From contig SWDI01000002.1 in NCBI GenBank assembly GCA_005116955.1, positions 609,316 to 673,315 of the forward strand: 64,000 bases of DNA, in the 5' to 3' direction. Position numbers and translations under genes: made by a program. The notes under the pieces were generated by a model. That model was not told where the DNA came from. It saw only the letters and a list, made by a program, of their open reading frames with translations, and did no database searches. The DNA comes from Nitrospira sp. Its GTDB lineage: Bacteria; Nitrospirota; Nitrospiria; Nitrospirales; Nitrospiraceae. Every line of letters begins with the position of its first letter. Position 1 is the first letter of the stretch. Of this stretch, positions 17,119 through 50,103 are shown in pieces.

Positions 17119-17121
17119 GTT

Positions 17122-21760: not shown

Positions 21761-21763
21761 ATC

Positions 21764-25333: not shown

Positions 25334-25344
25334 CAAGTCGCTTC

Positions 25345-26073: not shown

Positions 26074-26213
26074 CGTCCGAATCACACGTCTTGCCGTATG
26101 GCGGATTTATGTAGGTGACGGATCAGCGAGCATTACGGCATTTCGACGTAGGCTCAATCCGATCAGGAACTAGACTATGAGTGATCCATTGTTTCGGACC
26201 ATCTGAACAGAAT

Positions 26214-27146: not shown

Positions 27147-27221
27147 TGGCAACCATGCGTGTGCGATCAATGAAAATGCAACACGAACAACGTTCCATCA
27201 CCAGTGTGACGGAGTAGGCCG

Positions 27222-28214: not shown

Positions 28215-28215
28215 A

Positions 28216-29379: not shown

Positions 29380-30782
29380 TGTCGACCACCCACAGTCCGT
29401 TGAATATTGACCAGGTTTCCCAACCATCGGCCGCCACCGATTGGGCGACCATGCGTCGAACCTTCCAACGGTTCACGACTTCCATGGGCGCTGTTCAAAT
29501 CCTTCGCTCCTGTGTCCCAGAGCTCTCCACTGGTACGTATGAAATCAGCGACTGCGTCATCCTCGATGCAAAACTGAAAACGTATCTCAAGCCGACGAGC
29601 AAGAGTAAATCCACACTGTCCGCCTGCTATCAGCTCACGCTGAGAGAAGGATCAACTGATCCCTCGTTCCAGCGCATCATCTACGTGAAGGTGTTTCTCG
29701 GCGGTCGCAGCAGGGAAGCCTTTCGTCTGCTCACTCAAGGAGGAATGTCAGACTCCGAGTTTCACGATGCGGTGAGCCATGTGCCGGAGTACGATCTGAT
29801 TCTCTGGAAATTCCCCCATGACCCAGCCCTTCCTCATTTACGCCAACTTGTCGATCTTCTAGCCGTCGAGCAACACCTCCCTGTAGAAGGCCTGAGGCAG
29901 ATCGGCATACAGGGAACCGCTCAGGTCTTGGCGCAGCACGTCGTGAATTATCGGCCCGAGATTCGCTGCACCAATCGGTACAACCTTTACGATTCAACTT
30001 ACGATCGAACCGACCAATTGTTTGGGAAAACGTTCGGCAACTCACAGGGGCAAACCCTCCATGAGCGCCTGCAATACTTCTGGGACCGGTCCCTTGCCGA
30101 CCAGGAGGCGATGACCATTGCGCAGCCTCTTGGCTACAGCCCTGAGATCAATACCGTGTGGCAGTATGGAGTGCCTGGCACGCCGCTTCTCCAAGTACTG
30201 GACACCTCCAATTACAAACACTACATGGCAGCCGTCGCCAAAGGCCTCTCCTCACTACACACCAGCAACGTCGCTGGCCTCGCAACCCATTCGCCGGACG
30301 ACCATCTGGTCGAGATCCGCAAGAAACTGACGAAACTCTCCGATGCACTTCCACAGCTCTCGGAGATGTTTGAGAATATCGCGAATGATATCGAACAGAC
30401 CACGCCCCATTCATCGACGATGCCATTTCGCCCCATCCATTGGGACTTTCATGTTGATCAACTGCTTGCCGACAACAGGACACTCGTCTTCTGTGATCTC
30501 GATGAACTTATCATCGGCGATCCCGTACAGGACCTGGCAAACTTCGTGGTGGATCTCCAGTTCCGCCATGCAGATCAGGAATTTGTGCGTCTCATCACAA
30601 CCGAACTGTGTCATCAATACCAGAGGTTGGTGGACTGGACGGTCTCAGTCGAGCGGTTCGCTTGGCATGTTCGCCTCCAATTGGTGAACAAGGCCTACCG
30701 CCATTACTTACGGTTTGCACCGGCTTTCGACCAGACTGTCGAGCGAATTATGAGATTGGCCCAGAGAGGAATACTCCAATGA
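29376..30782 (+). CDS. Aminoglycoside-phosphotransferase-like kinase, copy 2
   Basis: 468 residues. The catalytic region reads IHWDFHVDQLL (Asp357), a W replacing the common R, followed by LVFCDLDELIIGDP as the metal motif. An N-terminal segment (LKTYLKPTSKSKSTLSACYQL) parallels 'YKPGKSCVLSYDL' of the 23960 kinase, showing that the two are paralogues with the same two-part layout. It overlaps the preceding gene by four bases and the next by four (ATGA). Two related kinases in one locus suggest phosphorylation of two different sugars or glycan ends. Cytoplasmic. Confidence 0.78.
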   Translation: MMSTTHSPLNIDQVSQPSAATDWATMRRTFQRFTTSMGAVQILRSCVPELSTGTYEISDCVILDAKLKTYLKPTSKSKSTLSACYQLTLREGSTDPSFQRIIYVKVFLGGRSREAFRLLTQGGMSDSEFHDAVSHVPEYDLILWKFPHDPALPHLRQLVDLLAVEQHLPVEGLRQIGIQGTAQVLAQHVVNYRPEIRCTNRYNLYDSTYDRTDQLFGKTFGNSQGQTLHERLQYFWDRSLADQEAMTIAQPLGYSPEINTVWQYGVPGTPLLQVLDTSNYKHYMAAVAKGLSSLHTSNVAGLATHSPDDHLVEIRKKLTKLSDALPQLSEMFENIANDIEQTTPHSSTMPFRPIHWDFHVDQLLADNRTLVFCDLDELIIGDPVQDLANFVVDLQFRHADQEFVRLITTELCHQYQRLVDWTVSVERFAWHVRLQLVNKAYRHYLRFAPAFDQTVERIMRLAQRGILQ

Positions 30783-32818
30783 GAGACGAGTTGTCTGACA
30801 AGACAGCTGTGGCTGAGAAACCGCGAGTGCTCATCTATTGTCAACACGTCTTGGGAATGGGCCATCTCATCCGAAGCATGACCATCGCACGAGCATTAAA
30901 TGGCTGCACCGTCGTGTTTGTGAATGGAGGCGAATCCATCTCCGGCATGGACATTCCATCGTGGGTCACGATCGTCAACTTGCCACCGATTACCTCTGAC
31001 AGTGAATTCCAAGGGTTGAACATTCACAGCAAGGACACCACGCTTGAACAGGTTCAACGAGCCAGAAAGAACATGCTGTTCGAACTCGTCGATCATTTCC
31101 GTCCCGACGTCATGATTATTGAGCTCTTCCCCTTTGGGAGAAAGCGATTTGCGTTCGAATTGCTGCCGTTACTGGCACACATCCGTCTTTCCGCCTCTTC
31201 GACAAAAGTCGTCTGCAGTCTGCGGGATATCCTGGTCACCAAACCGGATCAGACTCGCCACGAAGATTGGGTGGTCAGCCTCATGAACCGGTACTTCGAC
31301 TTGCTGCTGATCCATTCGGATCCGACGTTCCAGACCCTGGATGAGACCTTTTCACGCTGCCGAGATCTTCGATGCGACGTCCAATACACTGGCTTCGTCA
31401 CGCAGGACTCCGACATGTCGATGAATGTCCAGACAATAGACGGCCAACCAACCTCCGATGGCGTACCGCTGATTCTTGTTAGCGTCGGTGGGGGCCGCGT
31501 GGGACATGAGCTGCTCGACAGTGCCATTCGCGCCTCTGTTCTGCTTGTGCCGACCGTCCCTCATCGAACGTTGCTGTTCGCGGGCCCCTACATGCCGGAT
31601 CATCAGTATGAACCACTCCATGCACTTGCGATTCAACACCCACATATTGAAGTCCGCCGCTTCACCGCATCGTTCCAGTCGCTGATGCGACAAGCTGCAC
31701 TGTCCATCTCAATGGCCGGCTATAACACCTGTATGAATCTGTTGAATACCGGCACTCGCGCCCTGGTGTGGCCTTTTACCGGCAACAAGAATGACGAACA
31801 AACCATTCGTGCCAGAAAACTGGAACAACGCGGGCTGCTGACCCTATTGGAACCACCCGATCTCAGGCCAGAGCGGTTGGCAGAAAAGATTGCGGCCTCC
31901 CTGAATCATTCTCAGGTTCTCTCTGGTCATTCCATCAATACCCATGGCGGACGAGCGACGGCCATGGCAATTGAACGGCTTGTCGCGCAGCCACACAATC
32001 GGACCACTCACACGACAGTGGCTTCAGTATCCAGGAGTCAGCCTGACCACTGGCTCACCGGGTTCAAACAGTTCCTTGATGCAAAAGAAGCCGCGGGACG
32101 GACCCTCCACCTGTTTCTTCGCGATGATGATGTCGATGAGGACGAAGACTCGTTGAAGCACCTGCTCGACTTGGCGCTCGCCCGAGGCGTGCCGATGAAT
32201 CTTGAAATTATCCCCGGACGGCTCACGCCAGCCTGTACGGCCGCCCTCAAGAATGCCCTACGAGCCGATCATGCCCTATTGAGCCTCAACCAACATGGGT
32301 GGATGCACAGTAACCACGAGATGGAAGGACGCAAGTGCGAGTTTGGCTCTTCCCGTTCATTCACACAACAGCTGAATGACATTGCGCAGGGGAAAGCGAT
32401 CCTTGAAGGGACGTTTGACGAGTTGTTCTTCCCCGCCTTTACACCACCGTGGAACCGCTGCACGACAGACACCTATCGAGTGCTTGATGAACTCGGCTTT
32501 CAGGTCTTCTCGAAGGACCGTGGGAAGGACCGTCTGACCGAGTACCGTTTCTCAGAGATTTCCACAACACTGGATCTCTACACCTGGAAAGCAGGGGCTC
32601 GCATGAAATCTGCGCGCGAGATTGTTCGTGACCTGATGGTTCAGTTGGATACGCTCCCCTTCGTGGGACTGCTGTTACATCATAAGGTCATGGCCGAGGA
32701 TGCCTTCAAGTTTCTGGATCAGATACTCTGCGAGCTTCGCTGCTCCTCCGTGGTGAGATTCCATACGTTTCAAACACTGTTTCCACTCGTGGCAGGATCA
32801 CAGATGGTGCATCGATGA
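30779..32818 (+). CDS. Fusion of MurG-like glycosyltransferase and polysaccharide deacetylase
   Basis: 679 residues from the ATG at 30779, overlapping the previous stop. Residues about 15-430 are a GT28-type GT-B enzyme: HVLGMGHLIRSMTIA at the N-terminus and SISMAGYNTCMNL near 320, parallel to 'SMGGYNT' of the 15844 protein. Residues about 440-679 are a deacetylase-like domain with LFLRDDDVDEDE, LNQHGWMHSNHE and FFPAFTPPWNR, the usual Asp/His set of the NodB-like superfamily (DUF2334-type). The fusion would allow sugar addition and N-deacetylation on the same intermediate. No membrane segment. Four-base overlap with the ABC exporter gene. Confidence 0.82.
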   Translation: MRDELSDKTAVAEKPRVLIYCQHVLGMGHLIRSMTIARALNGCTVVFVNGGESISGMDIPSWVTIVNLPPITSDSEFQGLNIHSKDTTLEQVQRARKNMLFELVDHFRPDVMIIELFPFGRKRFAFELLPLLAHIRLSASSTKVVCSLRDILVTKPDQTRHEDWVVSLMNRYFDLLLIHSDPTFQTLDETFSRCRDLRCDVQYTGFVTQDSDMSMNVQTIDGQPTSDGVPLILVSVGGGRVGHELLDSAIRASVLLVPTVPHRTLLFAGPYMPDHQYEPLHALAIQHPHIEVRRFTASFQSLMRQAALSISMAGYNTCMNLLNTGTRALVWPFTGNKNDEQTIRARKLEQRGLLTLLEPPDLRPERLAEKIAASLNHSQVLSGHSINTHGGRATAMAIERLVAQPHNRTTHTTVASVSRSQPDHWLTGFKQFLDAKEAAGRTLHLFLRDDDVDEDEDSLKHLLDLALARGVPMNLEIIPGRLTPACTAALKNALRADHALLSLNQHGWMHSNHEMEGRKCEFGSSRSFTQQLNDIAQGKAILEGTFDELFFPAFTPPWNRCTTDTYRVLDELGFQVFSKDRGKDRLTEYRFSEISTTLDLYTWKAGARMKSAREIVRDLMVQLDTLPFVGLLLHHKVMAEDAFKFLDQILCELRCSSVVRFHTFQTLFPLVAGSQMVHR

Positions 32819-34647
32819 CGGTTTCTGATACGGCGCTGCGGGGACGCACACGATTCCGAGAAATCGTGGTCTCCCACTTGTGGTCGGCAAAAAGGCACAT
32901 TGGTGTGGCCGTTGGCTGCCTATTGGGCATGACATGCATGGAGCTTTTGGCGCCATGGCCGTTCAAAATCATTTTCGACTATATCCTCTTGCAGAAGCCG
33001 ATGCCGCCGTCGCTGTCCTTCCTTGATGCACTGTATCAAGCTTGGCCTCTGCTGATATTGATCGGTCTTGCCGCCTCGACGGCCGTCATCGCGGTTCTCA
33101 GCGGAGCACTGTCCTACGGGCAGTCTTTTGTCGTCAGCAAGATCGGCCATCGCTTGGTCCATGCCATCCGCCAAGCCTTGTTTTTTCACGTCCAACGCCT
33201 ATCGCTGTCCTTTCACACGCAGGCCCGGTCGGGAGAGCTGCTGGCCAAATTGGCCGGCGACACCAAAACATTGCGGAACGCCTACACGGATATCCCCCTC
33301 TCCGTCGCAGGCCATGCGGTCACGTTTCTAGGCATGTTTGTCGTCATGTTTGTCATCAACTGGCAACTGAGTCTTATCATTCTGGCCACCATGCCGATCG
33401 TCGTCACTGCATTGTTTACCTTGAGTCGAAAGATTCTGACGTCTACCCAAGCTCAACGGAAGCAGGAAGGTCAGATCACCTCACGTCTGAACGAAGTGCT
33501 CTCCTCCATCTCGCTCGTCCAAGCGTTTGGCCGGGAGCGATTCGAACAGCGTCGGTTCGAACAGGAAAGCGCGGGCAATGTGCACACCGGAATTCAGACG
33601 GCCAGAACGACCGCTGCCGTGACACGAGTGGTGTCCGCCATCGAAGCACTGGGAACGGCAGCGACCGTGTGCTTCGGAGCCTGGCAAGTGCTCAAGTCGC
33701 GTATGACACCCGGCGACCTGTTGATCTTTCTAAGCTACGTCAAGAGCTTTTACGGACCGGTGAAAAACCTATCGAAACTGTCGACTCAATTTTCACAGGC
33801 AACGGTCAGCGCCGACCGCATCGCAGATTTACTCGACATCGAGCCCGACATCCAGGACCGTCCCGACGCGGTCAAGGCGACACACCTTCGAGGTGATATC
33901 AGGTTTGAGCACGTGTCGTTCGGATATCTTGAAGGCTGCCCGGTACTACGTGATCTTTCTTTCCAGATATTGCCGGGCCAACGTGTTGCCTTAGTCGGTC
34001 CGTCGGGATCCGGGAAGTCGACCTTAGTCAGCTTGCTCCTCCGACTCTATCAGCCTTCCGGAGGCTCGATCACGTTCGATGGACGAGACCTCGCCGAGTA
34101 TGAGCGCGAATCGCTTCGCCATGAAATCGGTGTGGTGCTGCAAGACACGCTGTTGTTCCGAGCCAGCATCGCCGACAACATTTCGTACGGCGCGGAACAC
34201 GCTGCCCTCGAACAGATCGTGGAGGCCGCTCGAGAGGCAAACGCGCATGATTTCATATTGAGACTGCCTAACGGCTACGAGACCATAATTGGAGAGCGTG
34301 GCAGCACCCTGTCCGGCGGACAACGACAACGAATCTGCCTTGCGCGGGCACTCGTGAAACAACCGTCCATTCTGGTCTTAGACGAACCAACCGCCTCGCT
34401 CGACCAGGAATCAGCCGCCTATATTCGAGAAGCCATCACGCGTATCCACGCCAATCGAACGACGATCGTCATTACCCATCACTTGGTCAGAATGGAGCTG
34501 TTCGACCACATCCTCGTCTTGGATCAAGGCTGCTTAGTCGAACAGGGAACCCACCGAGCGTTACTGGAACGCCACGGACTCTATACCAATCTCTATGCAA
34601 GACAATCGGATGATCTAGTCCCTCTTCAATCGAGCAACCTGACATAA
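32815..34647 (+). CDS. MsbA-type ABC exporter (fused membrane and ATPase domains)
   Basis: 610 residues. Six TM helices in residues about 20-310, then an ATPase domain: Walker A GPSGSGKST (395-403), signature LSGGQRQR, Walker B ILVLDEPTASL and H-loop TITHH-type (IVITHH). It works as a homodimer in the inner membrane. The half-transporter layout matches exporters of lipid-linked or amphipathic molecules (MsbA, HlyB-like without peptidase). In this locus it is the only inner-membrane transport protein, so it presumably moves the glycan or glycolipid made by the upstream enzymes across the inner membrane. The gene overlaps the upstream stop by four bases and is followed 16 bases later by an outer-membrane channel gene. 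Confidence 0.9.
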   Translation: MTVSDTALRGRTRFREIVVSHLWSAKRHIGVAVGCLLGMTCMELLAPWPFKIIFDYILLQKPMPPSLSFLDALYQAWPLLILIGLAASTAVIAVLSGALSYGQSFVVSKIGHRLVHAIRQALFFHVQRLSLSFHTQARSGELLAKLAGDTKTLRNAYTDIPLSVAGHAVTFLGMFVVMFVINWQLSLIILATMPIVVTALFTLSRKILTSTQAQRKQEGQITSRLNEVLSSISLVQAFGRERFEQRRFEQESAGNVHTGIQTARTTAAVTRVVSAIEALGTAATVCFGAWQVLKSRMTPGDLLIFLSYVKSFYGPVKNLSKLSTQFSQATVSADRIADLLDIEPDIQDRPDAVKATHLRGDIRFEHVSFGYLEGCPVLRDLSFQILPGQRVALVGPSGSGKSTLVSLLLRLYQPSGGSITFDGRDLAEYERESLRHEIGVVLQDTLLFRASIADNISYGAEHAALEQIVEAAREANAHDFILRLPNGYETIIGERGSTLSGGQRQRICLARALVKQPSILVLDEPTASLDQESAAYIREAITRIHANRTTIVITHHLVRMELFDHILVLDQGCLVEQGTHRALLERHGLYTNLYARQSDDLVPLQSSNLT

Positions 34648-34663
34648 GCACCAACATGTTTTT

Positions 34664-36148
34664 GTGATGACGGACACCAATAGAGTAACGCCAGCTCGTG
34701 CGTTGCGTCTAACCAACATGAACCGCAAACCCACAATACAACTTATCCACATAGCGGCAGCCTGCACGTTCTGGTTGACCACTGTCGCATATGCTGCTGA
34801 GAAGGCAGTTGAGAAGGCTATCCAAGCTTCAACACCGTCAGTAAACGAACCCTCACCAAGTAACGGTCCAATCCTTCCGACCTACAGCCATTCAAACGGT
34901 CACCCAACTGGTCCACTCATAGAACCGTTTGATCCGAACGCACCACCACGAGCGACTATCCCTATCGGCCCGAATTTGTTTTGGGGTGGCTACGCATCAC
35001 TTGAGGGAGAAAGCAATCGCAACTATAGCCTGAGGTCTCACTTGAGCGAGGCCGATAGTATCCTGACGCCAATCCTTGCCCCCGCGTTCTCCTATGAGCC
35101 CAATCAATACCTGCAGCTCTATGTGAATCCTGTACTCGAAATACCGATTGCGTTCGAGGAGATCGAAGAACGGTCGCAGACCACCGCATTGAACATGAAC
35201 CTGGCTTTTCTCACGGTGAAAAATGTTGTGCCCGGAGCTAGAATGCAAGTAGGCAGGCAGCGCTTTATCGACTCCCGACGGTGGCTGTTCAACGAAAACA
35301 TGGATGCAATTCGGTTCGGGTACCAGTACGAACAATTTTCCCTGGAGCTGTCAGTCAGCCAGCTGAACCTGGTTCAGCGTAATTTATTGAGACGAGAGGC
35401 AGAAGAGGACGAAGAAGGGTTCGTCAATTACTACATGCATGCCGACTACAAGTTCGGCAAGAAAAACCATATTGGCCTGTTCGCGCTCTATCAGGATCAG
35501 CAACGGCTTGGTACGGCCCAACCTATCACGGTCGGTCTCCAATCTGGGGGACGACTCTTCGGCGACTTGAAATACTGGCTGCAAACCGCTGCCGTGCGCG
35601 GCTCAGACGGCGGCCAGCGTATTCGAGGTGAGGCCATCGATGTGGGGCTGACTCAACGCTTTGATGGAGCGTGGGAACCGTCCATCACCATTGGGTACGC
35701 CTATGGCACCGGAGACAGTAATCCCAACGACAATGTCGATGCGCGATTTCGACAGAGCGGCTTTCAAGGTAATTCCGATAAATTCAATGGCGTAGCACGG
35801 TTTAAGTATTATGGCGAAGTGCTTGATCCCAGATTGACGAACCTCATGGTCTTCACCGGGGGATTCGGCGTCCGGCCATTTGAAAAAACCTCATTCGATC
35901 TGGTCTATCATTATTACCTGCAAGACCATGTGTCGACGCGCATTCGTGGATCAAACCTGGACACTGACCCAACCGGGCTGAGCAAACATGTCGGGAGCGA
36001 AGTTGACCTTGTGGTGGGGTATCAGGGAATACCCCACCTGCAAACCAAGTTTGTCCTCGGCTACTTCTTCCCCGGTAAGGCCTTTGCCGACACGTGGCAC
36101 GACGGCGCGTTTCTCGCCAGCATCCTCTTACGGTACAACTTCTACTAA
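34664..36148 (+). CDS. AlgE-like outer-membrane polysaccharide channel
   Basis: Up to 494 residues; start codons in frame are GTG 34664, ATG 34667 and ATG 34718, and the signal peptide (ending AYAAE) fits best with 34718. The mature protein has a proline-rich linker, then a barrel region: NLFWGGYASLEGESNRNYSL at its start, MQVGRQRFIDSRRWLFNENM in the middle and, at the end, VGSEVDLVVGY, a 'FFPGKAF' loop and the terminal RYNFY. These fit the alginate export (AlgE) family. AlgE passes polysaccharide out through an 18-stranded barrel. Its place as the last gene of the locus, right after the ABC exporter, suggests it is the exit channel for the glycan. Confidence 0.85.
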   Translation: MMTDTNRVTPARALRLTNMNRKPTIQLIHIAAACTFWLTTVAYAAEKAVEKAIQASTPSVNEPSPSNGPILPTYSHSNGHPTGPLIEPFDPNAPPRATIPIGPNLFWGGYASLEGESNRNYSLRSHLSEADSILTPILAPAFSYEPNQYLQLYVNPVLEIPIAFEEIEERSQTTALNMNLAFLTVKNVVPGARMQVGRQRFIDSRRWLFNENMDAIRFGYQYEQFSLELSVSQLNLVQRNLLRREAEEDEEGFVNYYMHADYKFGKKNHIGLFALYQDQQRLGTAQPITVGLQSGGRLFGDLKYWLQTAAVRGSDGGQRIRGEAIDVGLTQRFDGAWEPSITIGYAYGTGDSNPNDNVDARFRQSGFQGNSDKFNGVARFKYYGEVLDPRLTNLMVFTGGFGVRPFEKTSFDLVYHYYLQDHVSTRIRGSNLDTDPTGLSKHVGSEVDLVVGYQGIPHLQTKFVLGYFFPGKAFADTWHDGAFLASILLRYNFY

Positions 36149-36354: not shown

Positions 36355-37293
36355 TCAATCGCGCCCACGGCCGGAATGGTCCGATCGCTCAGGGCGATCC
36401 CTACTATCCTGACGTTCAGGGCGTTCAACTCGATCCACTTTATCAGGACGGTCAATTCGCTCGGATCGGTCTCGGCTACCGGACTGTTCCTGTCGGTCAG
36501 ATCGATCTCTGTCGGAATCATCTCGACTCCCCTTGCCTCCCCGATCCCCACGGTCTCTCCGATCCCGATCACCTCCGGAGTCGCTATGATCATCACGAAA
36601 GAGCCGGTCACTTCGTTCGCCTTTACTGACCTTGTCACGAAGTGTTTGAAGACTGGCACGGCCGTCTTCAAAGTCGGATCCTCGCCGCTTCACTTCTCGA
36701 CTGAGATCCATGAGTTCAGATGAACGATACCCCTGCTTGATCCCCTCGCCGACCAAAGCCGTTCCATCTTTCGACGGAATTCTGCCCTCTTTCATCACGG
36801 CCAAGCCTTTTGCGCCAGCCGCGAGCTCTTCCTGAGTCGCCTTATGGCGGCCTTCTTGCGACAATCGGCTCAGCTCCCGCACCTCATCGACAGTCGTTCC
36901 ACGGGAAAGGGCTTCAGCCATCGTTTCGATGGCGCGTTGGCGATTCCCCTCGGACAGGCCTCGGCTTTTTGCCTCTTCCAGCACTTCGTGAGCGGATTCG
37001 AGTCGTGACGTCATCTGTCGCAGCACCGGATCGATCCGCTTGGGTTCAACTCCTTTCGCCAGACCTTCTCTCATCTTATTCAGCAACGACTCGGTGGGAA
37101 GCCCCCTCTCGCCGGCCTTGCTGACGTGATCGAGCAAGGGAGTGATCTCGTTCTCCGAACGGCCCTGTGCCGAACCAAGCCGAGTGATTGCTTCTCGATC
37201 CTGAACCGAGAGGGGTTCCGCCCAGACGGAGGCGGTGGTCAACGCCACCATCAAGCTCAACACCCCCATCTCTATGACGATTCGCTTTCTCAT
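36355..37293 (-). CDS. Secreted protein with helical repeats and Arg/Asp-rich tail
   Basis: 312 residues. A signal peptide (ending VWAEP) precedes a helix-rich part (about 30-215) with repeated short helices such as EARELSRLSQEG-type and MAEALSRGTTVDEV. From about 220 the chain is low-complexity, dominated by Arg, Asp, Ser and Gly (DRDRRDRGDRGG, then RDRPERSDHSGRGRD). The tail is highly charged and probably disordered. It lies in a minus-strand group that also includes the CBM48 lipoprotein and the ECF/anti-sigma pair, four bases after the lipoprotein gene. A similar Arg/Asp-rich tail occurs in the protein at 40286. Function unknown; binding of an acidic polymer or ions is speculation. Confidence 0.7.
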   Translation of the reverse strand: MRKRIVIEMGVLSLMVALTTASVWAEPLSVQDREAITRLGSAQGRSENEITPLLDHVSKAGERGLPTESLLNKMREGLAKGVEPKRIDPVLRQMTSRLESAHEVLEEAKSRGLSEGNRQRAIETMAEALSRGTTVDEVRELSRLSQEGRHKATQEELAAGAKGLAVMKEGRIPSKDGTALVGEGIKQGYRSSELMDLSREVKRRGSDFEDGRASLQTLRDKVSKGERSDRLFRDDHSDSGGDRDRRDRGDRGGKGSRDDSDRDRSDRQEQSGSRDRSERIDRPDKVDRVERPERQDSRDRPERSDHSGRGRD

Positions 37294-37297
37294 CGTT

Positions 37298-37684
37298 TTA
37301 CCGTACGATCACCACTCCGTTGGTTTGCCCGAACCCATCGGTGACGAAATCCTCAGCTTGGGGAGGCGTCATCCATCTGATTCCATCGATCACATACATG
37401 AACGTATGTTCTCCTTCTGCCAGCGGCACATCGACCAACCAGACCGAAGAACCATCCACGATCTTCATCGGCGTCGCATCCTTGGTCCAACCATTGAAAG
37501 ACCCCACGAGAACGACCTGTTTGGCGCCAGGCGCGAGCACCGTGAAACGCACGGCCCCGGCCAGTGGCTTGGGCATGTTCGGCTTCAACACCGAGGGCTT
37601 GGCACAGGCCAAGAAACCACATAGCAGCATGATTGCGATGAGGCTTTTGGATAGGCGTCCGAGCCTCGTCAGTCTCATTCCCAT
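37298..37684 (-). CDS. Lipoprotein with CBM48 (AMPK-beta type) glycogen-binding domain
   Basis: 128 residues: a lipoprotein signal peptide with lipobox GFLAC, then one CBM48/AMPK-beta domain: VRFTVLAPGAKQVVLVGSFN with the signature 'GSFNGW', GEHTFMYVIDG and WMTPP, ending FGQTNGVVIV. This is the family of alpha-glucan (glycogen/starch) binding modules. It is a close relative of the domain in the anti-sigma factor encoded directly upstream, which it follows by 53 bases. The likely location is the periplasmic face of a membrane. It may bind alpha-glucan or serve as ligand or partner for the anti-sigma factor; that is inference. Confidence 0.85.
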   Translation of the reverse strand: MGMRLTRLGRLSKSLIAIMLLCGFLACAKPSVLKPNMPKPLAGAVRFTVLAPGAKQVVLVGSFNGWTKDATPMKIVDGSSVWLVDVPLAEGEHTFMYVIDGIRWMTPPQAEDFVTDGFGQTNGVVIVR

Positions 37685-37737
37685 GTGCGGGAGAGTACAG
37701 ACAGACTAGACCCGTTGCAAGAGATTCCGGGGACAAT

Positions 37738-38421
37738 TTAAATCGCCACATCAAGCACCGCATTCTGTGCGCCGAACCCATCGGTCGTTTCTTCGGGAGC
37801 AAGTGGATCGGCAATCCACTGTTTGCCGTCAATGACGAACATGTATTGATACCGACCGGGCTTCAATGGGATGGTCGCGGTCCACGCACCGCCATCCGAT
37901 CGCTCCAGTTTGGTCTGAGCTGGATCCCACCCATTGAAGTCTCCTGCCACTGATACCGATTGTGCTCCCGGTTGCAGCAGGACCAGCCGGACGAATATCT
38001 TCGGTTCTTCCTGCTTCGTGCTGGTCGCGATTGTCTGGGCTGGAGTAGCCGGAACCTGTAGCTCTACGACTCGCGGGGATATCACTGCGAACAAGCCCGC
38101 CACCGATACGATTGCAACACAAGCCGCTGCGACTGCACCGGCAAGGTTCCATTCAAACGTCCGCGTCGTCGTCACGGTAGCCCACAACTGTGCCCACCAA
38201 CTGAGCGGGGGCGGAGTGACTTTGGCCTTCAACTCACTCAGAAATCTGGCGGACGGAGTCATTCTCGGCAATTGGGCCGCCTCTGCAACCACCATCTCAA
38301 GATTAAGCCAGCGTCGACGCAATGTTGGATCGGCATCCACAGCCTGCAAGAACTCGACTCGCTCTTCAGGCGTCAAGTCCTGATCCAAGAATCGTTGAAC
38401 CAGAAGTTCTTGTTCATCCAT
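37738..38421 (-). CDS. Membrane anti-sigma factor with periplasmic CBM48 domain
   Basis: 227 residues. Residues 1-70 are acidic helices (MDEQELLVQRFLDQDLTPEE) of the type found in anti-sigma factors, without the His/Cys zinc motif. One TM helix (about 93-116) places the C-terminal part outside. Residues about 141-227 are a CBM48/AMPK-beta module: FVRLVLLQPGAQSVSVAG, DFNGWD, GRYQYMFVIDGKQWIADP, FGAQNAVLDV. It follows the sigma gene by 30 bases. The layout suggests a sensor: binding of a glucan or a protein to the external module would release the sigma factor. No other CBM48 anti-sigma is known to me for certain, though RsgI-like anti-sigma factors of clostridia use carbohydrate modules in the same way. 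Confidence 0.85.
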   Translation of the reverse strand: MDEQELLVQRFLDQDLTPEERVEFLQAVDADPTLRRRWLNLEMVVAEAAQLPRMTPSARFLSELKAKVTPPPLSWWAQLWATVTTTRTFEWNLAGAVAAACVAIVSVAGLFAVISPRVVELQVPATPAQTIATSTKQEEPKIFVRLVLLQPGAQSVSVAGDFNGWDPAQTKLERSDGGAWTATIPLKPGRYQYMFVIDGKQWIADPLAPEETTDGFGAQNAVLDVAI

Positions 38422-38451
38422 AGATCACCACCACTGATACAGAACGTCCTC

Positions 38452-39030
38452 TCAAGCAGGGTTGAGCGATGCCAACTCACGGCTGAGTTGCAGCCGTCCT
38501 TTATACACTCTCATTTTTAACGTGTCGCCATTCACACCGAGAATCTCCTCCATCTCCTCGTAGCTCAATCCTTCGACATGTTTCAGCACAAACGCCTCAC
38601 GATACAGAGGGGGCAATCGTTGGATCGCCTGTTCTAACTCCAGTGCGACCTGTTGCTGAGAGAGCAGGCGCTCAGGAGTCCGCTCTTCAGCGACATGGCT
38701 ATCGAGCACCTCGTCGATGTCGACATCCTGTTGGCCCATTCCCGGCCGCTTGGCCCGCAACCAGTCTTTGCACTTATTCGAGGCGATTCGGTACAACCAG
38801 GTCGAAAACTTTGAGTCTGCACGGAATGTTGACAGCGCCTTGAACGCCGTGAGGAACGCTTCCTGTGCCAAGTCTTCGGCCTCCGCGTGATTCCCAACCA
38901 TCCGATAGGCTAGATTGATGATCACGGACGCATGTCGATCGATCAGTTGCCCGAAGGCCTCGTGATCCTGCTTGAGGCTGCGAGCAACCAGTTGGGCATC
39001 ATCAGGTGCTACATCATGATCCGGTGGCAT
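38452..39030 (-). CDS. ECF (RpoE-like) sigma factor
   Basis: 192 residues with region 2 (about 20-95: AEDLAQEAFLTAFKAL and FSTWLYRIASNKCKDWLR) and region 4 (about 130-185: LPPLYREAFVLKHVEGLSYE and the HTH TLKMRVYKGRLQLSREL). This is the standard group IV sigma factor size and layout. It directs RNA polymerase to its own promoter set, and is normally held inactive by the anti-sigma factor. Here the anti-sigma gene is the next gene downstream, then the CBM48 lipoprotein and the Arg/Asp-rich secreted protein. The 118 bases upstream (39031-39148) should contain the autoregulated promoter, but I could not identify it. Confidence 0.92.
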   Translation of the reverse strand: MPPDHDVAPDDAQLVARSLKQDHEAFGQLIDRHASVIINLAYRMVGNHAEAEDLAQEAFLTAFKALSTFRADSKFSTWLYRIASNKCKDWLRAKRPGMGQQDVDIDEVLDSHVAEERTPERLLSQQQVALELEQAIQRLPPLYREAFVLKHVEGLSYEEMEEILGVNGDTLKMRVYKGRLQLSRELASLNPA

Positions 39031-39148: not shown

Positions 39149-40096
39149 TTAGAAGCGGTAACTGGTGCCGAGTGAGACGACATAGTCCGGTGCTCCATTC
39201 GACAGACCGACCGCCACGCCGCCATTCAGGCGCCAAGCAGCCGACAGGCGGTAATTCGATGAGAAAAAGACGTCTCTCGCGTTCGGTAAACCTGGTCGAA
39301 GAGCTCGATATTCCTCGAAATACACACTCGTCAACAGGTCCTTTGTCACGTAGTATCCGGCCCCCACGTCATACCAGTATTGGTTGCGCAAACCTAATGT
39401 GCCGGAGCCATCCGCTCGATCCGGATCGCCGATAAAGTTGTACCCACCATCAAAAAATACCAACCAGCTGGCCCCAATCAGCTTAGAGACCTCAACCCCA
39501 TACCCATGATCGAACTCGCCGGTTCCTAACCCCTGGCTCGCATTCGCCGTGGGGAACTTCAACCGAGCTGTCACTGCAATCAGTGGCACATACTCCTGTT
39601 CTTCAACGAGATAGTAGCGTCCCCGCAGAATCACATCGCCGATTCCTGTGGTCGTCACCTTTTGACCGGCGACACGCGTAGTGGTACCGCAAGGCACATC
39701 ATTATTATTCCCGGGGCCACTGTTATCCTTACGACAATTGTCATCCGATCCACCACCGCCCCCACTACCAGACCCGCTTTTGTCGTCGACACGGAATGCT
39801 GTATTTCCAACCACAGTCGTGCGCCCGTCGGTGATTGCCGTCACTGAAGGGATGACCAGCGAAATATCACCTTTGGGGAACAACCGCCTGATTGACAGCG
39901 GTGCATAAATAAACTCGCTTGTCGTATTGGTTCCAAAATTCCCGTGGCTATAGCTTGGCGTGAAGCTGATCTGCCAGTTTCGTTCTGTCGTCTGTTGTGG
40001 TCGCTTATCGGTCGGATCAGCGGCAAAGCCTTCGTTTCCACAGAATCCAACGACTGTGACGAGCACCATCATCCACAGGACCATCCGTCTCTGCAT
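39149..40096 (-). CDS. Outer-membrane beta-barrel protein (phenol-pathway MetA-like)
   Basis: About 315 residues from the ATG at 40096; a GTG at 40135 in frame would add 13 residues before the signal peptide. Signal peptide about 1-26 (ending FAAD). Strand-rich region with alternating residues (WQISFTPSYSHGNFG, GDVILRGRYYLVEEQEYVPL, VVSLGTSYRF) and a terminal Phe, typical for barrels. A glycine/serine-rich loop (SGSGSGGGGGSDDN) with two Cys (C, then GPGNNNDVPC) is inserted at about residues 110-140. It fits the 'MetA-pathway of phenol degradation' outer-membrane family. The substrate is unknown. It lies between the sigma operon and the low-complexity protein genes on the same strand. Confidence 0.7.
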   Translation of the reverse strand: MQRRMVLWMMVLVTVVGFCGNEGFAADPTDKRPQQTTERNWQISFTPSYSHGNFGTNTTSEFIYAPLSIRRLFPKGDISLVIPSVTAITDGRTTVVGNTAFRVDDKSGSGSGGGGGSDDNCRKDNSGPGNNNDVPCGTTTRVAGQKVTTTGIGDVILRGRYYLVEEQEYVPLIAVTARLKFPTANASQGLGTGEFDHGYGVEVSKLIGASWLVFFDGGYNFIGDPDRADGSGTLGLRNQYWYDVGAGYYVTKDLLTSVYFEEYRALRPGLPNARDVFFSSNYRLSAAWRLNGGVAVGLSNGAPDYVVSLGTSYRF

Positions 40097-40218
40097 CGTT
40101 CTCGGCCAACCCTTTCTGCATAGGAGTCTGTACACTATGCGGTCTCGTAATAAAACCTAACGGTGCTACCTTAGCGATAAATAAATTGTAGCGCAACGAT
40201 TCATAGGGCAAAATAGGA

Positions 40219-40285: not shown

Positions 40286-40888
40286 TTAGTGTCGCTCTCC
40301 CCGCTCCGGTCTTTCAGCACGATCAGGTCTATCCTGATGGTCTGGGCGCTCAGGTCGTTCTGATCGCTCCATTCGTTCCGGTCTGTTTGGTCGTTCCATG
40401 TGCATCATACGAGCATTGTCTCGCCCGTCTCGGCCGTGTTCTCCCGCGACATGGTCGGCTCGGTCAAGACCGCGGAGTTCATCACCGGCATTTGATCGAT
40501 GATCCTCTCGACGATCTTGGCGCCTGTTCATCTGCCGGTCTTCTCTCCTGTCCTCTCTCCGATCGAGTTGTCGATCTTCACGACGATCTTCCCTTCGATC
40601 GATCTGTCGATCTTCTCTGCGGTCTGCGCGTCGATCTTCCTGGCGGACATCATTGGCCTGAGCCACCGCCATAGGGTCTCTCCCATGTCTCCCACTCTGA
40701 TTTTCTACATCTCGACCACTATTCAATGATCCTGGTCCACTGTTGAGTGAGCCAGGCCCCCGATTGTCGACCCGTATCTCCGGCCCTTCCATGGAGCCAC
40801 TCATCTTGCCTATGGCTGGTGAGGTCAACACTGAGAGTCCTGCGAGAGTTCCCACAATGATTTCTTTCCAACTGGTGCGGTTCATCAT
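40286..40888 (-). CDS. Secreted low-complexity Arg/Asp/Glu-rich protein
   Basis: 200 residues; the start at 40888 has AAAAGGAGATGA upstream. Signal peptide about 1-27. The mature protein is composed of charged repeats: DRREDRRADRREDRQIDRRE-like units of seven to eight residues in the middle, then RPERMERSERPERPD in the C-terminal part. No cysteine. The chain should be disordered and highly hydrophilic. The similar tail of the 36355 protein and closeness in the map suggest a shared role, perhaps in holding a charged extracellular layer. This is speculation; there is no known domain. Confidence 0.6.
   Translation of the reverse strand: MMNRTSWKEIIVGTLAGLSVLTSPAIGKMSGSMEGPEIRVDNRGPGSLNSGPGSLNSGRDVENQSGRHGRDPMAVAQANDVRQEDRRADRREDRQIDRREDRREDRQLDRREDRREDRQMNRRQDRREDHRSNAGDELRGLDRADHVAGEHGRDGRDNARMMHMERPNRPERMERSERPERPDHQDRPDRAERPERGERH
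40495..40660. repeat. Short tandem repeats coding for DRREDRQ-type units
   Basis: The DNA here is built of imperfect units around GATCTTC/TCGATC (for example TCGATCTGTCGATCTTC), coding for the Arg/Asp/Glu repeats of the overlapping minus-strand gene. Copy number could vary between strains. Confidence 0.6.
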
Positions 40889-40946: not shown

Positions 40947-42398
40947 TTAATCTTCTAATTCTGCCTCTTCCCATACGACCGTCGTACCGCTCAACTCACC
41001 CTTCACTTTCACCAGTGAGTTGACGCTCACCGCAGCCAAGAAGCCCGCACGACTCATGGATGTCCCGCTCACGCTCTCAAACTGATTGATGACGCTTGTA
41101 TCAACCGACACTCCCAGGATCGTTATGACATTTCCGGCAATCGATTGAACCGGTCCTTGGAGATCCACATCATTATCGGATGAGCGAACCTGGATATGGG
41201 TCGCAAGCACAGTATTGGGACCAATGACCCGACCACGCACCCTCACATGATTGCCCTGCAGATCATTCACAGTAATTATGTTTCCACTATCCTTCAACTC
41301 CGTCTGGCTGTTCACGGTAATCGTCACACCAGAAAGCCCCGTCAGTGATAGTGTGCTGCCGGTGATTGTTGCATCTCCTTCAAGCCGTACACTTTCATGG
41401 AACTTCACATGCTTGGCAATGAGCGTACTGCCGTCAAACCGGCCTTCGGCGGACATCTTGGCCCCAACTACGATCTCATCGACGGTTCCGCCACGAAACT
41501 TCGTGCTTGCCACCGTCCTCACTGGAGTAGTTCCAATGGTGAAATCGATGACGCTGCCATTAGGCGTGCCGGCTTGTGTCACGAAGCCTTCGACTTCGAG
41601 TTCATCGATGGCATTCCCGAGGCCCTGGTTCTCTGGTTCGACTTTCGTCGCAATAAGCGTCGTTGTTGCACTGGAAAAGTTTGTCCCTTTGACCTCAACG
41701 AAACGACCGTCCCAGTTGTTCCCATTGGGGACCGGCATGTCACTGATGTCCGCTCCACTGTAGTTCACCGTGAGGGTGCCGATCCGGAATGTTGCAGATC
41801 CAGAAGCATGGTTGTTCACAAATCCCCGCACCTCGGGCGTCACCCCCACTAATTTCTTTTCGATGAATGTCGCCTGAATGATTCCGTTGGGACGAATATG
41901 GCCGTTGACTTCAACATTGTCCGTCCCAGCCACAAGATTCACGATGTTTCGCCCAGGAATGTTGTCGTCGATCAATGTCGTATTGTCGATGAACACTGTT
42001 TGCCCCATCACCACCAGACTCAAACCATCCCCTGCCACCGACTGCACAAGCCCTTCCACCGCATCCTTTTGCTGAACGGAACTGGCCGTATGCTGACTGC
42101 CGTTGAATGAGCCATTAACCGTCACTACCATTCCCTTTTTGAATCCACAGGTCGTCACGGGATTAATGGTGCATCGCTCCGTGACACCATCTCTCCGCAC
42201 TTCCACATTTTCAGCCTCGAACTTCTTTCCATTCACAAACACGCTGCCAAAGTCCGTGACAGTTCCGGATGCTGATGCCGACCCGCTTCCTGATCCGCTC
42301 GCCGATACAGACGGTGCTCCCTCGCTACCACAGGCTGCAAGTATTCCGGCCACTCCGATCACGCCGATTAAACGGACGACACAAAACGAGGTTCTCAT
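40947..42398 (-). CDS. DUF5666 lipoprotein
   Basis: 483 residues with a lipoprotein signal peptide (lipobox LAAC, Cys about residue 23), then a Ser/Gly-rich linker (SASGSGSGSASASG) and serial DUF5666 domains: GTVTDFGSVFVNGKKFEAEN, GLVQSVAGDGLSLVVMGQTV, and later units such as 'GFVTQAG' and 'GDATITGSTLSLTG'. AGGAGT precedes the start. It is homologous in plan to the 8773 protein, though longer. Predicted envelope lipoprotein of unknown role. It is followed on the minus strand by the 40286 gene 58 bases later, so the two may share a transcript. Confidence 0.82.
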   Translation of the reverse strand: MRTSFCVVRLIGVIGVAGILAACGSEGAPSVSASGSGSGSASASGTVTDFGSVFVNGKKFEAENVEVRRDGVTERCTINPVTTCGFKKGMVVTVNGSFNGSQHTASSVQQKDAVEGLVQSVAGDGLSLVVMGQTVFIDNTTLIDDNIPGRNIVNLVAGTDNVEVNGHIRPNGIIQATFIEKKLVGVTPEVRGFVNNHASGSATFRIGTLTVNYSGADISDMPVPNGNNWDGRFVEVKGTNFSSATTTLIATKVEPENQGLGNAIDELEVEGFVTQAGTPNGSVIDFTIGTTPVRTVASTKFRGGTVDEIVVGAKMSAEGRFDGSTLIAKHVKFHESVRLEGDATITGSTLSLTGLSGVTITVNSQTELKDSGNIITVNDLQGNHVRVRGRVIGPNTVLATHIQVRSSDNDVDLQGPVQSIAGNVITILGVSVDTSVINQFESVSGTSMSRAGFLAAVSVNSLVKVKGELSGTTVVWEEAELED

Positions 42399-42427: not shown

Positions 42428-42868
42428 TTATGACTTGTGGTTTTTAGAGTCATTAGTCGACACAGGCGCTGGTCGCGGCATATCGGCCAGCACATCCGCC
42501 GACCAGGTGACATGCGCCGGACACCATTGCCAAACGCCGAGGGTGATGATGCGCGTGAGTCCAGCAGGCATGCAGGCAAGTCGGTTGACGGACACCTCCC
42601 GATTGACCACCCTAGTCGAGGCTCCGCATCGATTCAGATATGGCTCACTGGAGACATCGCGAAGATCGATATGAGGGGTGAGAAAGGCCACGATCGGGAC
42701 AGGCAGCACAGCAATCGATGAATCATCCACCCACTCGCTCCCAGAACAATGGCCCTCGACCCCAACCATGCGCTTCACATCGTCGCGGACTAATGTGGAA
42801 GTACAACTCGACAGCAGCAGTGTTACTGAAAGCAGATACGCGATCACTTTTGAACTGAATGGTTGCAT
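42428..42868 (-). CDS. Hypothetical lipoprotein
   Basis: 146 residues. The start has AGGAGGGGGTT upstream. A lipoprotein signal peptide with lipobox LLSSC (Cys about residue 22). The rest contains five further Cys (HCSGSE, NRCGAST, ACMPAG, WCPAHV) and no recognised domain. It starts 29 bases upstream (on the minus strand) of the DUF5666 gene, so the two are probably co-transcribed. Function unknown. Confidence 0.6.
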   Translation of the reverse strand: MQPFSSKVIAYLLSVTLLLSSCTSTLVRDDVKRMVGVEGHCSGSEWVDDSSIAVLPVPIVAFLTPHIDLRDVSSEPYLNRCGASTRVVNREVSVNRLACMPAGLTRIITLGVWQWCPAHVTWSADVLADMPRPAPVSTNDSKNHKS

Positions 42869-43010: not shown

Positions 43011-44831
43011 TTACTGGATTGGATTACGCTGAGCAGGAGTCAACAGATCTTTCCAGGTCTGAGGAAGATTCTGGACCCACCCGTTGTACACGACAGGGAT
43101 GGTGAGGAGCCCCTGACCGCCCATGCCGCGATTGCCGGTGATGGTGTCATCCGATGCAGTCCCGACTGTCGAAGTCAGCAAGATTCTGCCGACGATCTCG
43201 GCATCAGCCGGATTGCCGTCGTTGTTTGGGTCCGGATCGACCACGATCAAGCTGTTCGAGAACTTACTCGAGACGTAGGCATAGTACCCACCACCCTGCT
43301 TCGCCCCATACTGCACGCCATGGCAGCCTGGATCGCAAGGCAACATCGCCACGACTGTATCGGTGACTGGATCGACGACCGTAATCGTGGCCGTGAGCGT
43401 GTTGGCTGTGACCATATTCTTCCCGTTCGGACTGACCGGCGTTTGAATCGGTAACGCACCAACTGGGCCTGTAATTACCCCAGTAATGGCATTGTAATTT
43501 TCGAGCAGGTTGATCGTCTTCGTCACGACCTTCGCCTGCGTGTCGATCACTGTAATCGTGCTATTGAGCAGACTCGCCACGTAGGTTTTTTTTGAGTCTG
43601 GGGTCATGCCAGTTGCGATCGGCAAGGCGCCGGCCGGCAAGATGGCATCAATGGAATCATTTGCAAAGTTGTACTGCGTGCTGTCCGATGAAAAGGCGTT
43701 CGGTGTCACCATCTTCTTGCCATCGTGGCTCATCCAATGGGCATGGGGGTTCCCACGTCCGATGTTGATGCGCCGCTGTACACCGTTTGCCATAGGTGCC
43801 AATTCAACCACAGAATCATTGTTCGGCGAGCCATTCAACGTCACATGCAGCTGATCGGTGTCGGTTCTGGTCATCACATGGGCCGGCGATTCTCCCACGG
43901 AGATATTATTCAAGAATTGTCCAGACGTTCGATTGAAGACGGTCAGTTTGCTGTCGAACCATTGCGTCTGATAGATCAGATTCTGGTTCTTATCCGTCCA
44001 CATGTTGTGGGGATTGTTCATGTTGATCTGCGGGAGCGCAACCTTGCGTCTTGCTTGCCAGGTCTGGCCATTAATGGCCGTGGCCGTACCGGGTTTGCTC
44101 TTCCCCGCAGTCTTCTCAAACTGGGTATCGACCCAGATTTCTCCCACCGCTGCCGTCGTGGGATTGTTCAATGCTGCTTTGGCGATGTCGTTTCCATACC
44201 GAGTGCTCAGTACCGCATCGAGATTAGCAACCGCGCCACCTGTGATGCGGACATCGACATTGGGATACGTGATGTGCCAGGGAGCGGAGGAACTATAGTC
44301 CTCCCAGTTCGCGGGATGGGTCGCAATGAAGAAGGTGCGGAGTAGCCTGGTCGCAAGATCGCTGCTGGTTGGAACCGTGATGCCGTTGACCAGCGAGATG
44401 GTTTCGCCGAGATCCAGCCCGGTCGTGGCCGGATTGTCCACGATCACCGCACCGAACATGTACGGATGGATCTTGCAGGTAAACACATAGAGGCCCGGCG
44501 TATGGAGCACAACTTGATCTGATCCCTTACGGGGCGCCGTATCAAACGGCATATTGATCGCCCCGGTCGGGAAGATCAAACTGGTGCGCGTGTGTACCGT
44601 GTTGGATTTCCCGGTGAATACGACTTCGGTTCCCGGCGTTGCCACCGCGAGCGAACCAAAACCTGCAACCGGCCCTGCTGCATTTCTAAACCAGGCGCCA
44701 GGCTCGTCAGTAATTTCAAACGTGACACGTGGACCGTCCGCCTGGACGGTGCTCGCCATAGGACTCAATGCAGCAAATGCGAAAATCCCAGCTACCCACA
44801 CAGACACACCTAAACGGACACGTCTTCTCAT
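43011..44831 (-). CDS. Amicyanin-like blue-copper domain fused to a YVTN-type beta-propeller
   Basis: 606 residues from the ATG at 44831 (AGGAAGTGGGC upstream; 46 extra codons further up are unlikely). Signal peptide about 1-32. Residues about 35-135 form a cupredoxin with a type 1 copper set His80, Cys119, His122, Met125 (TCKIHPYMFGAVIV), the C-x2-H-x2-M spacing of amicyanin. A linker region (about 140-270) is followed by a beta-propeller of YncE/YVTN type (repeats such as KKMVTPNAFSSD, KTYVASLLNSTITVIDTQ, GKNMVTANTLTATITVVDP). A CDPGCH sequence near residue 500 is a CX3CH, not the canonical heme motif. It is a secreted electron-transfer-type protein; substrate unknown. Confidence 0.85.
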   Translation of the reverse strand: MRRRVRLGVSVWVAGIFAFAALSPMASTVQADGPRVTFEITDEPGAWFRNAAGPVAGFGSLAVATPGTEVVFTGKSNTVHTRTSLIFPTGAINMPFDTAPRKGSDQVVLHTPGLYVFTCKIHPYMFGAVIVDNPATTGLDLGETISLVNGITVPTSSDLATRLLRTFFIATHPANWEDYSSSAPWHITYPNVDVRITGGAVANLDAVLSTRYGNDIAKAALNNPTTAAVGEIWVDTQFEKTAGKSKPGTATAINGQTWQARRKVALPQINMNNPHNMWTDKNQNLIYQTQWFDSKLTVFNRTSGQFLNNISVGESPAHVMTRTDTDQLHVTLNGSPNNDSVVELAPMANGVQRRINIGRGNPHAHWMSHDGKKMVTPNAFSSDSTQYNFANDSIDAILPAGALPIATGMTPDSKKTYVASLLNSTITVIDTQAKVVTKTINLLENYNAITGVITGPVGALPIQTPVSPNGKNMVTANTLTATITVVDPVTDTVVAMLPCDPGCHGVQYGAKQGGGYYAYVSSKFSNSLIVVDPDPNNDGNPADAEIVGRILLTSTVGTASDDTITGNRGMGGQGLLTIPVVYNGWVQNLPQTWKDLLTPAQRNPIQ

Positions 44832-45026
44832 GCCCACTTCCTGTGATGATGTGAAATGTAAAAGAACTGCTTGCCGAACTTTGCAGCGTCGGAGGTCATG
44901 GCCTCCGTCTTGACCAGGACCGGTGCGGTGCAAGTTGGCCACTGCGGTTAGACGAATCGGCAAGTACAATGTAAACGAGTAACAGAAAAGTTCAAGGAAT
45001 AATTTTAAGATTGAGTTTATGGAACC

Positions 45027-49812: not shown

Positions 49813-50103
49813 ACTCTTCCTCCGGTCTACGGTCGCCTTCGACGCCAGTGTTCCAATACGGATGTTCCGAACCAATCGAGATTTTCAGCATTCATCTGTG
49901 AAGGCTGATGATGGACTCATCGGCATATTCCCAAAGAATGATCAAAAAACCTTCACGAAATCATGACGTCTTCGTCACAGACTGATCGTTTTTTGGATAC
50001 ATGGCCCTGCGATTACGCCATGGCTAAGCAGAAGGCGAGGCTTGTCCGTGTCAGATGAGTGAACAGGACCAGGACGGGAAGATGTGATATGTGACCGGAA
50101 ACT

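Follow-up and report, generated by a model that had tools for sequence, protein, structure and literature searches.

In Pseudomonas, the AlgU (RpoE)-MucA-MucB system combines an extracytoplasmic function (ECF) sigma factor, a single-pass anti-sigma factor and a periplasmic partner, and controls an exopolysaccharide locus with an alginate-export-type outer-membrane (OM) protein, while Rsi24C is a carbohydrate-sensing anti-sigma factor of Clostridium thermocellum. Membrane anti-sigma factors with external carbohydrate modules are known from RsgI, which controls SigI in C. thermocellum (PMC10766802, PMC6056542), ECF sigma factors are tied to glycan loci through the envelope in the ECF/FecR-type systems of Bacteroides (PMC10766802), and predicted carbohydrate modules occur in the ECF52 and ECF53 pathways (PMC10766802). 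Here, a 64,000-nt stretch of a Nitrospira genome (contig SWDI01000002.1; hereafter the window, in whose own numbering positions are given) is described that encodes an ECF sigma factor, an anti-sigma factor with a predicted external CBM48 domain, a lipoprotein carrying the same domain and a secreted helical protein. The locus is tentatively read as an envelope-glycan sensor spanning several phyla, in which an external AMPK-type fold would gate a matrix-building ECF sigma factor assisted by an apparently obligatory secreted helical protein that matches no known family or fold.

Like RsgI/SigI, the Nitrospira system has a membrane anti-sigma factor with an external carbohydrate-type module, but SigI belongs to another sigma family, the RsgI N-terminal domain is missing, the module is a CBM48 joined by additional lipoprotein and helical partners, and the predicted output is exopolysaccharide synthesis and export in Gram-negatives rather than polysaccharide degradation in Gram-positives. 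The component types, and the alginate-export-type OM protein of the target locus, are those of AlgU-MucA-MucB, whereas MucA carries no carbohydrate module and the Nitrospira partner is a helical protein without known relative. In contrast to the Bacteroides systems, no FecR domain and no SusC/D were found and synthesis or export is predicted rather than uptake, and in contrast to ECF52 and ECF53, where the modules (membrane, carbohydrate-binding or hydrolase) are fused to the sigma factor, they lie here on a separate anti-sigma factor and a lipoprotein. The nearest domain in fold and sequence is the glycogen-binding domain of the AMPK beta subunit, with W100, W133 and N150 common to both, though the Nitrospira domain is bacterial, predicted to be extracytoplasmic and to regulate a sigma factor, and differs at K126, L146 and T148. 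A literature search returned no ECF/CBM48 anti-sigma system, with the main ECF reclassification, which may list such a group, lying outside that search. As far as the searched literature goes, the CBM48/AMPK-type sensor on an ECF anti-sigma factor, its conservation across phyla, the apparently obligatory helical partner and the predicted exopolysaccharide regulon are new.

An anti-sigma factor with a predicted external CBM48 domain

The four genes follow one another on the minus strand in the transcription order sigma factor, anti-sigma factor, CBM48 lipoprotein and helical protein, separated by 30, 53 and 4 bp (Table 1). This order is kept in nearly all of ~49 Nitrospira loci, including those of the cultured N. 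moscoviensis (L088) and N. defluvii (L092), with conservation extending to the wider neighbourhood, and the arrangement recurs across phyla; chance or misread open reading frames (ORFs) are therefore rejected. The nearest named relatives of the window genome are RSF1, RSF5 and CG24B. The sigma factor (orthologues 78–91% identical) contains only sigma-70 regions 2 and 4, as in ECF sigma factors (Pfam: Sigma70_r2, 1.1e-22; Sigma70_r4_2, 3.1e-14), and scores 119 bits for the NCBIfam sigma70-ECF family (cut-off, 42.9).

The anti-sigma factor matches AMPK1_CBM (3.2e-11) and CBM_48 (1.7e-10) over residues 150–226, above the Pfam gathering score. Its AlphaFold2 (AF2) model (mean predicted local distance difference test [pLDDT], 85) consists of four N-terminal helices (3–12, 18–30, 32–49 and 58–68), a transmembrane (TM) helix at 92–113, a low-confidence linker and a beta-sandwich (142–225), for which Foldseek returned the AMPK beta1 glycogen-binding domain (1z0m_C; E, 6.6e-8; TM-score, 0.82 on target). 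Hydropathy revealed one hydrophobic segment only, with a peak of 2.66 at residue 96. The direct NCBIfam antisigma match is weak (25 bits; cut-off, 100), and the HxxxCxxC zinc motif is absent from the sequence, a motif that is optional in class I anti-sigma domains (ASDIs), ~44% of which are without it (PMC7406223). Because relatives in the Atribacteria, where the zinc motif is kept, match zf-HC2 (E, 6.8e-8) or RseA_N at the same position, the N-terminus is by homology a class I anti-sigma domain minus its zinc motif and would bind and inhibit the sigma factor, whose co-oriented gene lies directly 5′ in nearly all loci. With that domain in the cytoplasm and a single TM helix, the predicted topology must place the CBM48 outside the cytoplasmic membrane.

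These results agree with the first-pass annotation of the window, made from the letters alone, which had described the sigma gene, an anti-sigma factor with one TM helix, an external C-terminal CBM48 and no zinc motif, and a lipoprotein made up of a signal and the same domain; ORFs, Pfam, AF2 and Foldseek bear out the components, and adjacency and the N-termini of relatives bear out the pairing. Its view that the system is analogous to RsgI and yet unrelated also holds: neither the window system (for RsgI, in Pfam and NCBIfam) nor, for FecR, the anti-sigma factor and the homologues scanned matched these domains, the sigma partner is an ECF factor rather than SigI, and membership of either family was rejected.

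Among orthologues in 15 genomes, 48 of the 85 CBM columns are invariant compared to 32 of the 142 in the N-terminal part, and the CBM is the best-conserved portion of the anti-sigma factor. Such conservation, along with retention of the domain across phyla beside the same partner gene, argues against a vestigial or generic periplasmic CBM48 on a pair that answers general envelope stress like many ECFs. The C-terminal parts of class I anti-sigma factors are very diverse and the sigma factor scores SigW/RpoE-like in NCBIfam, below the cut-offs of those families, both of which are in line with such a generic domain, but this reading is considered very improbable.

Distribution of the pair and its secreted helical partner

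Beyond the genus, the sigma/CBM48-anti-sigma pair was found in the Vicinamibacterales (Acidobacteriota), other Nitrospirota, Fodinibius (Balneolota), the Elusimicrobia and the Atribacteria, as well as in a Gemmatimonadaceae bacterium (Gemmatimonadota), a Deltaproteobacterium and the Spirochaetes. A domain search for anti-sigma/CBM48 combinations had been proposed in the first-pass annotation, and the combination recurs in many phyla.

The lipoprotein (AMPK1_CBM, 2.5e-9) has a signal and a conserved Cys, the lipobox Cys being invariant in 16 orthologues. Its gene lies 3′ of the anti-sigma gene in Nitrospira and Acidobacteria and 5′ of the sigma gene in other Nitrospirota (L101, L102, L104, L105) and an unclassified bacterium (L113); occurring on either side, the association has therefore survived rearrangement. 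In several other phyla the CBM48 lipoprotein was not found in the sequenced flanks of the pair, and it appears to be an accessory component. According to the first-pass annotation, the lipoprotein might compete for the ligand or present it. In Fodinibius, a neighbouring gene product that is OM-barrel-like in sequence bears a CBM48 at its C-terminus. A further link between CBM48 and the outer membrane was seen in a Cloacimonadota locus (L121, 1828–3875), where two CBM48 domains are followed by an apparent beta-barrel.

The fourth gene, absent from the first-pass annotation, encodes a protein with a signal peptide, ~210 helical residues and an arginine/aspartate (R/D)-rich tail. It belongs to no Pfam or NCBIfam family, and its AF2 model (pLDDT, 80) is all-alpha and had no match in the PDB better than E 0.11. 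Using a profile built from the Nitrospira orthologues, homologues sharing the motif GLPxxPLxNKxxEGLAKGV were found next to the pair in the Acidobacteriota, Nitrospirota, Balneolota, Atribacteria, Elusimicrobia, Deltaproteobacteria and Gemmatimonadota, with weak profile scores in Fodinibius, one Elusimicrobium, the Gemmatimonadaceae locus and a Spirochaete (L120). Across 246 Nitrospirota genomes, the helical protein occurs in all 42 with a full anti-sigma factor compared to one of the 204 without, and the two genes are ≤670 bp apart in 32 same-contig pairs. The sole exception (G030) has a decayed locus in which the sigma gene is gone and the anti-sigma gene is a broken remnant. This distribution suggests that the helical protein is apparently an obligatory partner of the sigma/anti-sigma pair. 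The exception belongs to a decay series (L035, 9771–10500; L036, 4606–5177; G030; G033) in which the sigma gene has been lost and the anti-sigma factor is a CBM48 remnant with a stop, while the CBM48 lipoprotein and the helical protein are still intact.

A predicted promoter motif and its regulon

Alignment of the regions upstream of the sigma gene from 50 Nitrospira loci revealed a conserved GTTTAC-N16-CGTC(T/C)AA with near-constant spacing and near-ungapped conservation, which is predicted to be an ECF-type -35/-10 pair and the sigma factor's own promoter (autoregulation). The core of the motif, TTTAC-N16-CGTC, occurs at four sites in the window (0.21 expected), before the sigma gene, the lipoprotein group, a beta-propeller gene and the 20-kb glycan locus. 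A search allowing one mismatch gave noise equal to the control, and the sites used were the exact ones plus the sigma factor's own one-mismatch site. Exact matches to the extended motif were present in 39 of 39 Nitrospira genomes with the system (115 sites) compared to 5 of 40 without (Fisher, 2e-17, a value that overstates the evidence as genomes of one genus are related and not independent), and the reversed extended pattern gave ~8 matches in all 79 genomes.

Outside the sigma operon, exact sites precede the glycan locus, paralogues of the 146-aa lipoprotein, a 199-aa OM barrel, a DUF5666/R-D-rich pair (L303) and an R/D-rich/OM pair (L304), with a few seeming intragenic or unrelated (L209, L305). 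The Acidobacteriota have GTTTAC-N16-CGTCTAA ahead of an operon that leads from an R/D-rich protein through an OM protein to the sigma genes. A variant, TGTAAC-N16-CGTCTTA, stands before the sigma operon both in Fodinibius and in other Nitrospirota, and Fodinibius has it upstream of an envelope lipoprotein as well; in these genomes the sites are about as many as in the controls, and the evidence there is position, not number. From these sites, the predicted regulon very probably takes in the sigma operon and the 20-kb exopolysaccharide locus, together with genes for envelope lipoproteins, OM barrels and secreted R/D-rich proteins.

The glycan locus encodes GT28 and GT4 glycosyltransferases (one GT4 close to EpsE; NCBIfam, 1.2e-118, just below the cut-off), two heparinase II/III proteins, kinase-like proteins, a deacetylase-like domain, an ATP-binding cassette (ABC) exporter and an alginate-export-type OM protein, and this content points to an exopolysaccharide that is modified and secreted more than to glycogen. 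Its first gene has close orthologues in 14 genomes or species (15 copies), all of them in genomes with the sigma factor, and the exact motif lies 152–179 bp upstream in 15 of 15 copies, even where the locus is apart from the sigma operon. The locus is found in 14 of the 39 Nitrospira genomes with the system compared to none of the 40 without, and the same target follows the motif in Nitrospirales OFTM76 too (L264). The connection between the pair and the glycan locus, at first drawn from their occurrence in one window, is strengthened by this shared promoter motif.

The first-pass annotation had favoured sensing of an alpha-glucan in the envelope; read in this way, the system would sense a storage-type alpha-glucan (glycogen or maltodextrin) and control alpha-glucan metabolism. 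The nearest folds are indeed the glucan-binding domains of AMPK beta and SEX4, and the debranching gene that had been reported is real (GDE_C, 63079–63999, at the window edge). In one relative (L217, 996–2984), a gene of the alpha-amylase family (CBM48-GH13) comes immediately after a regulon lipoprotein, and no other direct link to alpha-glucan was seen; no such neighbour was found in the other loci inspected (L208, L218, L220, L222, L300–L302). However, neither the debranching gene nor any other glycogen gene of the genome has the exact motif, and an alpha-glucan regulon was rejected on this basis. Further, glycogen is cytoplasmic and the domain is predicted to be outside, the controlled locus (heparinase-like, alginate-export-type) is unlike an alpha-glucan pathway, and three AMPK contact residues are replaced (below). 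Alpha-glucan as the ligand is thus left unsupported and the storage-glucan reading is regarded as improbable; alpha-glucan is only one candidate, and the best reading is envelope-glycan sensing that controls matrix synthesis.

Two protein groups recur behind the motif. A family of ~130-aa lipoproteins with the motif HCSGS..VDDSSxAVLPVPxVAF and no Pfam match (window 42428–42868; L208, L217, L218, L220, L222, L300–L302) is present in more than one copy in some genomes, sometimes adjoining DUF6502 and DUF5666 genes. Secreted polyampholytes rich in R/D (or PERPDRP) repeats, possibly matrix proteins, occur in several lineages (window 40286–40888, 36355–36600; L261, L263, L266, L267).

The ligand question, the proposed mechanism and further features

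Aligned with AMPK, the anti-sigma CBM48 keeps W165 (W100), W202 (W133) and N220 (N150), and, a few exceptions apart, these positions hardly vary between phyla in either module; the two tryptophans that stack against carbohydrate have not been lost. In AMPK, W100, K126, W133, L146 and T148 all matter for glycogen binding (PMC2642990). As the tryptophans and N150 are kept and K126, L146 and T148 are replaced, a carbohydrate site in the CBM48 modules is likely, and its specificity may differ from glycogen.

The main rival is that the CBM48 acts as a protein-protein contact (early-set domain) without a sugar, the anti-sigma factor sensing OM or matrix proteins (the helical protein, the CBM48 lipoprotein or an OM barrel, for example) in the manner of RseA/RseB or MucA/MucB. 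Such contact would fit the apparently obligatory helical protein, there being no obligatory glucan enzyme, the Fodinibius OM-barrel-like neighbour with the same C-terminal domain, the wealth of OM and secreted proteins in the regulon and the replacement of the three AMPK residues. The near-invariance of the stacking tryptophans and N150 in both modules in several phyla is nevertheless hard to explain without a ligand, and a glycan locus belongs to the predicted regulon; protein contact is judged unlikely, though less so than the storage-glucan or generic readings.

Under the favoured explanation, glycan-controlled sigma release with a matrix and envelope regulon, which is held with moderate confidence, the anti-sigma factor would use its helical domain in the cytoplasm to hold the sigma factor at the inner membrane, its CBM48 lying in the periplasm. 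A periplasmic glycan would alter the state of the CBM48, leading to release of the sigma factor, probably via regulated proteolysis; Peptidase_M50 (site-2 protease) homologues are present in the genome, a family that is universal. This glycan would either resemble alpha-glucan or belong to the cell's own exopolysaccharide, as its intermediate or product, and the CBM48 lipoprotein and secreted helical protein may share it. The free sigma factor would then transcribe from GTTTAC-N16-CGTCYAA its own operon and the genes for envelope lipoproteins, R/D-rich secreted proteins, OM barrels and exopolysaccharide synthesis and export, and matrix would thereby be made in step with the condition of the envelope or of the matrix itself. 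The parts of this pathway, their conservation, the predicted topology and the promoter motif with its targets can be read directly from the DNA.

Several points weigh against this explanation. We infer that the anti-sigma factor binds the sigma factor, that the signal is a glycan and that release is by proteolysis, as well as what the lipoprotein and helical protein do. The glycan as ligand is the weakest of these steps, although still somewhat probable: K126, L146 and T148 are replaced by M194, F216 and A218 (across phyla, mostly Met or else Gln, Ser, Asn, Arg or Leu at the first position, mostly Phe at the second and Ala, Ser or others at the third), only two of five glucan-contact residues (W100, W133), plus N150, are identical to AMPK, the CBM48 fold itself could account in part for the conserved FNGW and second W, and the glycogen genes lack the exact motif. 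As a genome-wide regulon finder, the core TTTAC-N16-CGTC was rejected (22 matches compared to 22 in the reversed control), and the promoter argument draws its weight only from the extended motif, its conservation and its co-occurrence with the system, for which p-values are inflated by relatedness.

If the explanation is true, nitrifying Nitrospira, among them the cultured N. moscoviensis and N. defluvii, would have in this system a candidate regulator of exopolysaccharide and of the floc and biofilm matrix, for which a promoter motif and target genes are at hand for direct testing. The AMPK/CBM48 glucan-binding fold would then be an extracytoplasmic signalling domain in use in many bacterial phyla, and a transcription-control pathway would gain an obligatory secreted protein family without known fold.

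Table 1. Coordinates of the sigma system, predicted promoters and predicted targets in the window.
Feature	Position	Strand	Basis
ECF sigma factor, 192 aa	38452..39030	-	Pfam, NCBIfam, orthologues
Single-pass anti-sigma factor with C-terminal CBM48/AMPK-beta domain, 227 aa	37738..38421	-	Pfam, AF2, homologues, gene order
TM helix of anti-sigma factor, residues 92-113	38083..38148	-	Hydropathy, AF2 model
CBM48/AMPK glycogen-binding-type domain of anti-sigma factor, predicted extracytoplasmic, residues 143-227	37741..37995	-	Pfam, Foldseek
Lipoprotein, signal plus one CBM48 domain, 128 aa	37298..37684	-	AMPK1_CBM, lipobox Cys
Secreted all-helical protein with R/D-rich tail, apparently obligatory third component	36355..37293	-	Co-occurrence, AF2
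Predicted ECF promoter of sigma operon, ATTTAC-N16-CGTCTAA	39096..39124	-	Conservation upstream of sigma
Predicted ECF promoter of 146-aa lipoprotein/DUF5666/R-D-rich genes, GTTTAC-N16-CGTCTAA	42899..42927	-	Exact match; same position in relatives
Predicted ECF promoter before beta-propeller gene	44948..44976	-	Exact match
Predicted ECF promoter of 20-kb exopolysaccharide locus, GTTTAC-N16-CGTCCAA	15665..15693	+	Exact match; kept in relatives
Exopolysaccharide locus, predicted target	15844..36148	+	Pfam, NCBIfam
OM beta-barrel-type protein, upstream neighbour of sigma	39149..40135	-	Phenol_MetA_deg 8.6e-8; synteny
Secreted R/D-rich repeat protein, predicted target	40286..40888	-	Synteny; analogues behind motif in Acidobacteriota and other Nitrospirota
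DUF5666 lipoprotein, predicted target	40947..42398	-	DUF5666 3.8e-25; synteny
Small lipoprotein, 146 aa, predicted target	42428..42868	-	Exact motif upstream; paralogues L208, L218, L220, L222
Beta-propeller protein, predicted target	43011..44969	-	YNCE 3.8e-7; exact motif at 5′ end

The counterpart of the OM barrel gene upstream of the sigma gene shares an operon with sigma in the Acidobacteriota. The true start of the propeller gene is probably further in, because the motif overlaps the TTG start of the longest ORF. Nitrospira without the system carry a short CBM48 protein (L037–L046; ~115–125 aa) of a 'QYKF' type in which K126 is kept, possibly a cytoplasmic glycogen-binding protein, which also occurs in some genomes with the system (L044–L046) and has more distant relatives (L042, L043); lacking a signal peptide and locus synteny, these proteins form a separate group and were rejected as members. 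A second, longer ECF-type sigma factor (257 aa) is encoded at 49102–49875, near a histidine kinase/response regulator pair and a lactonase-type propeller.

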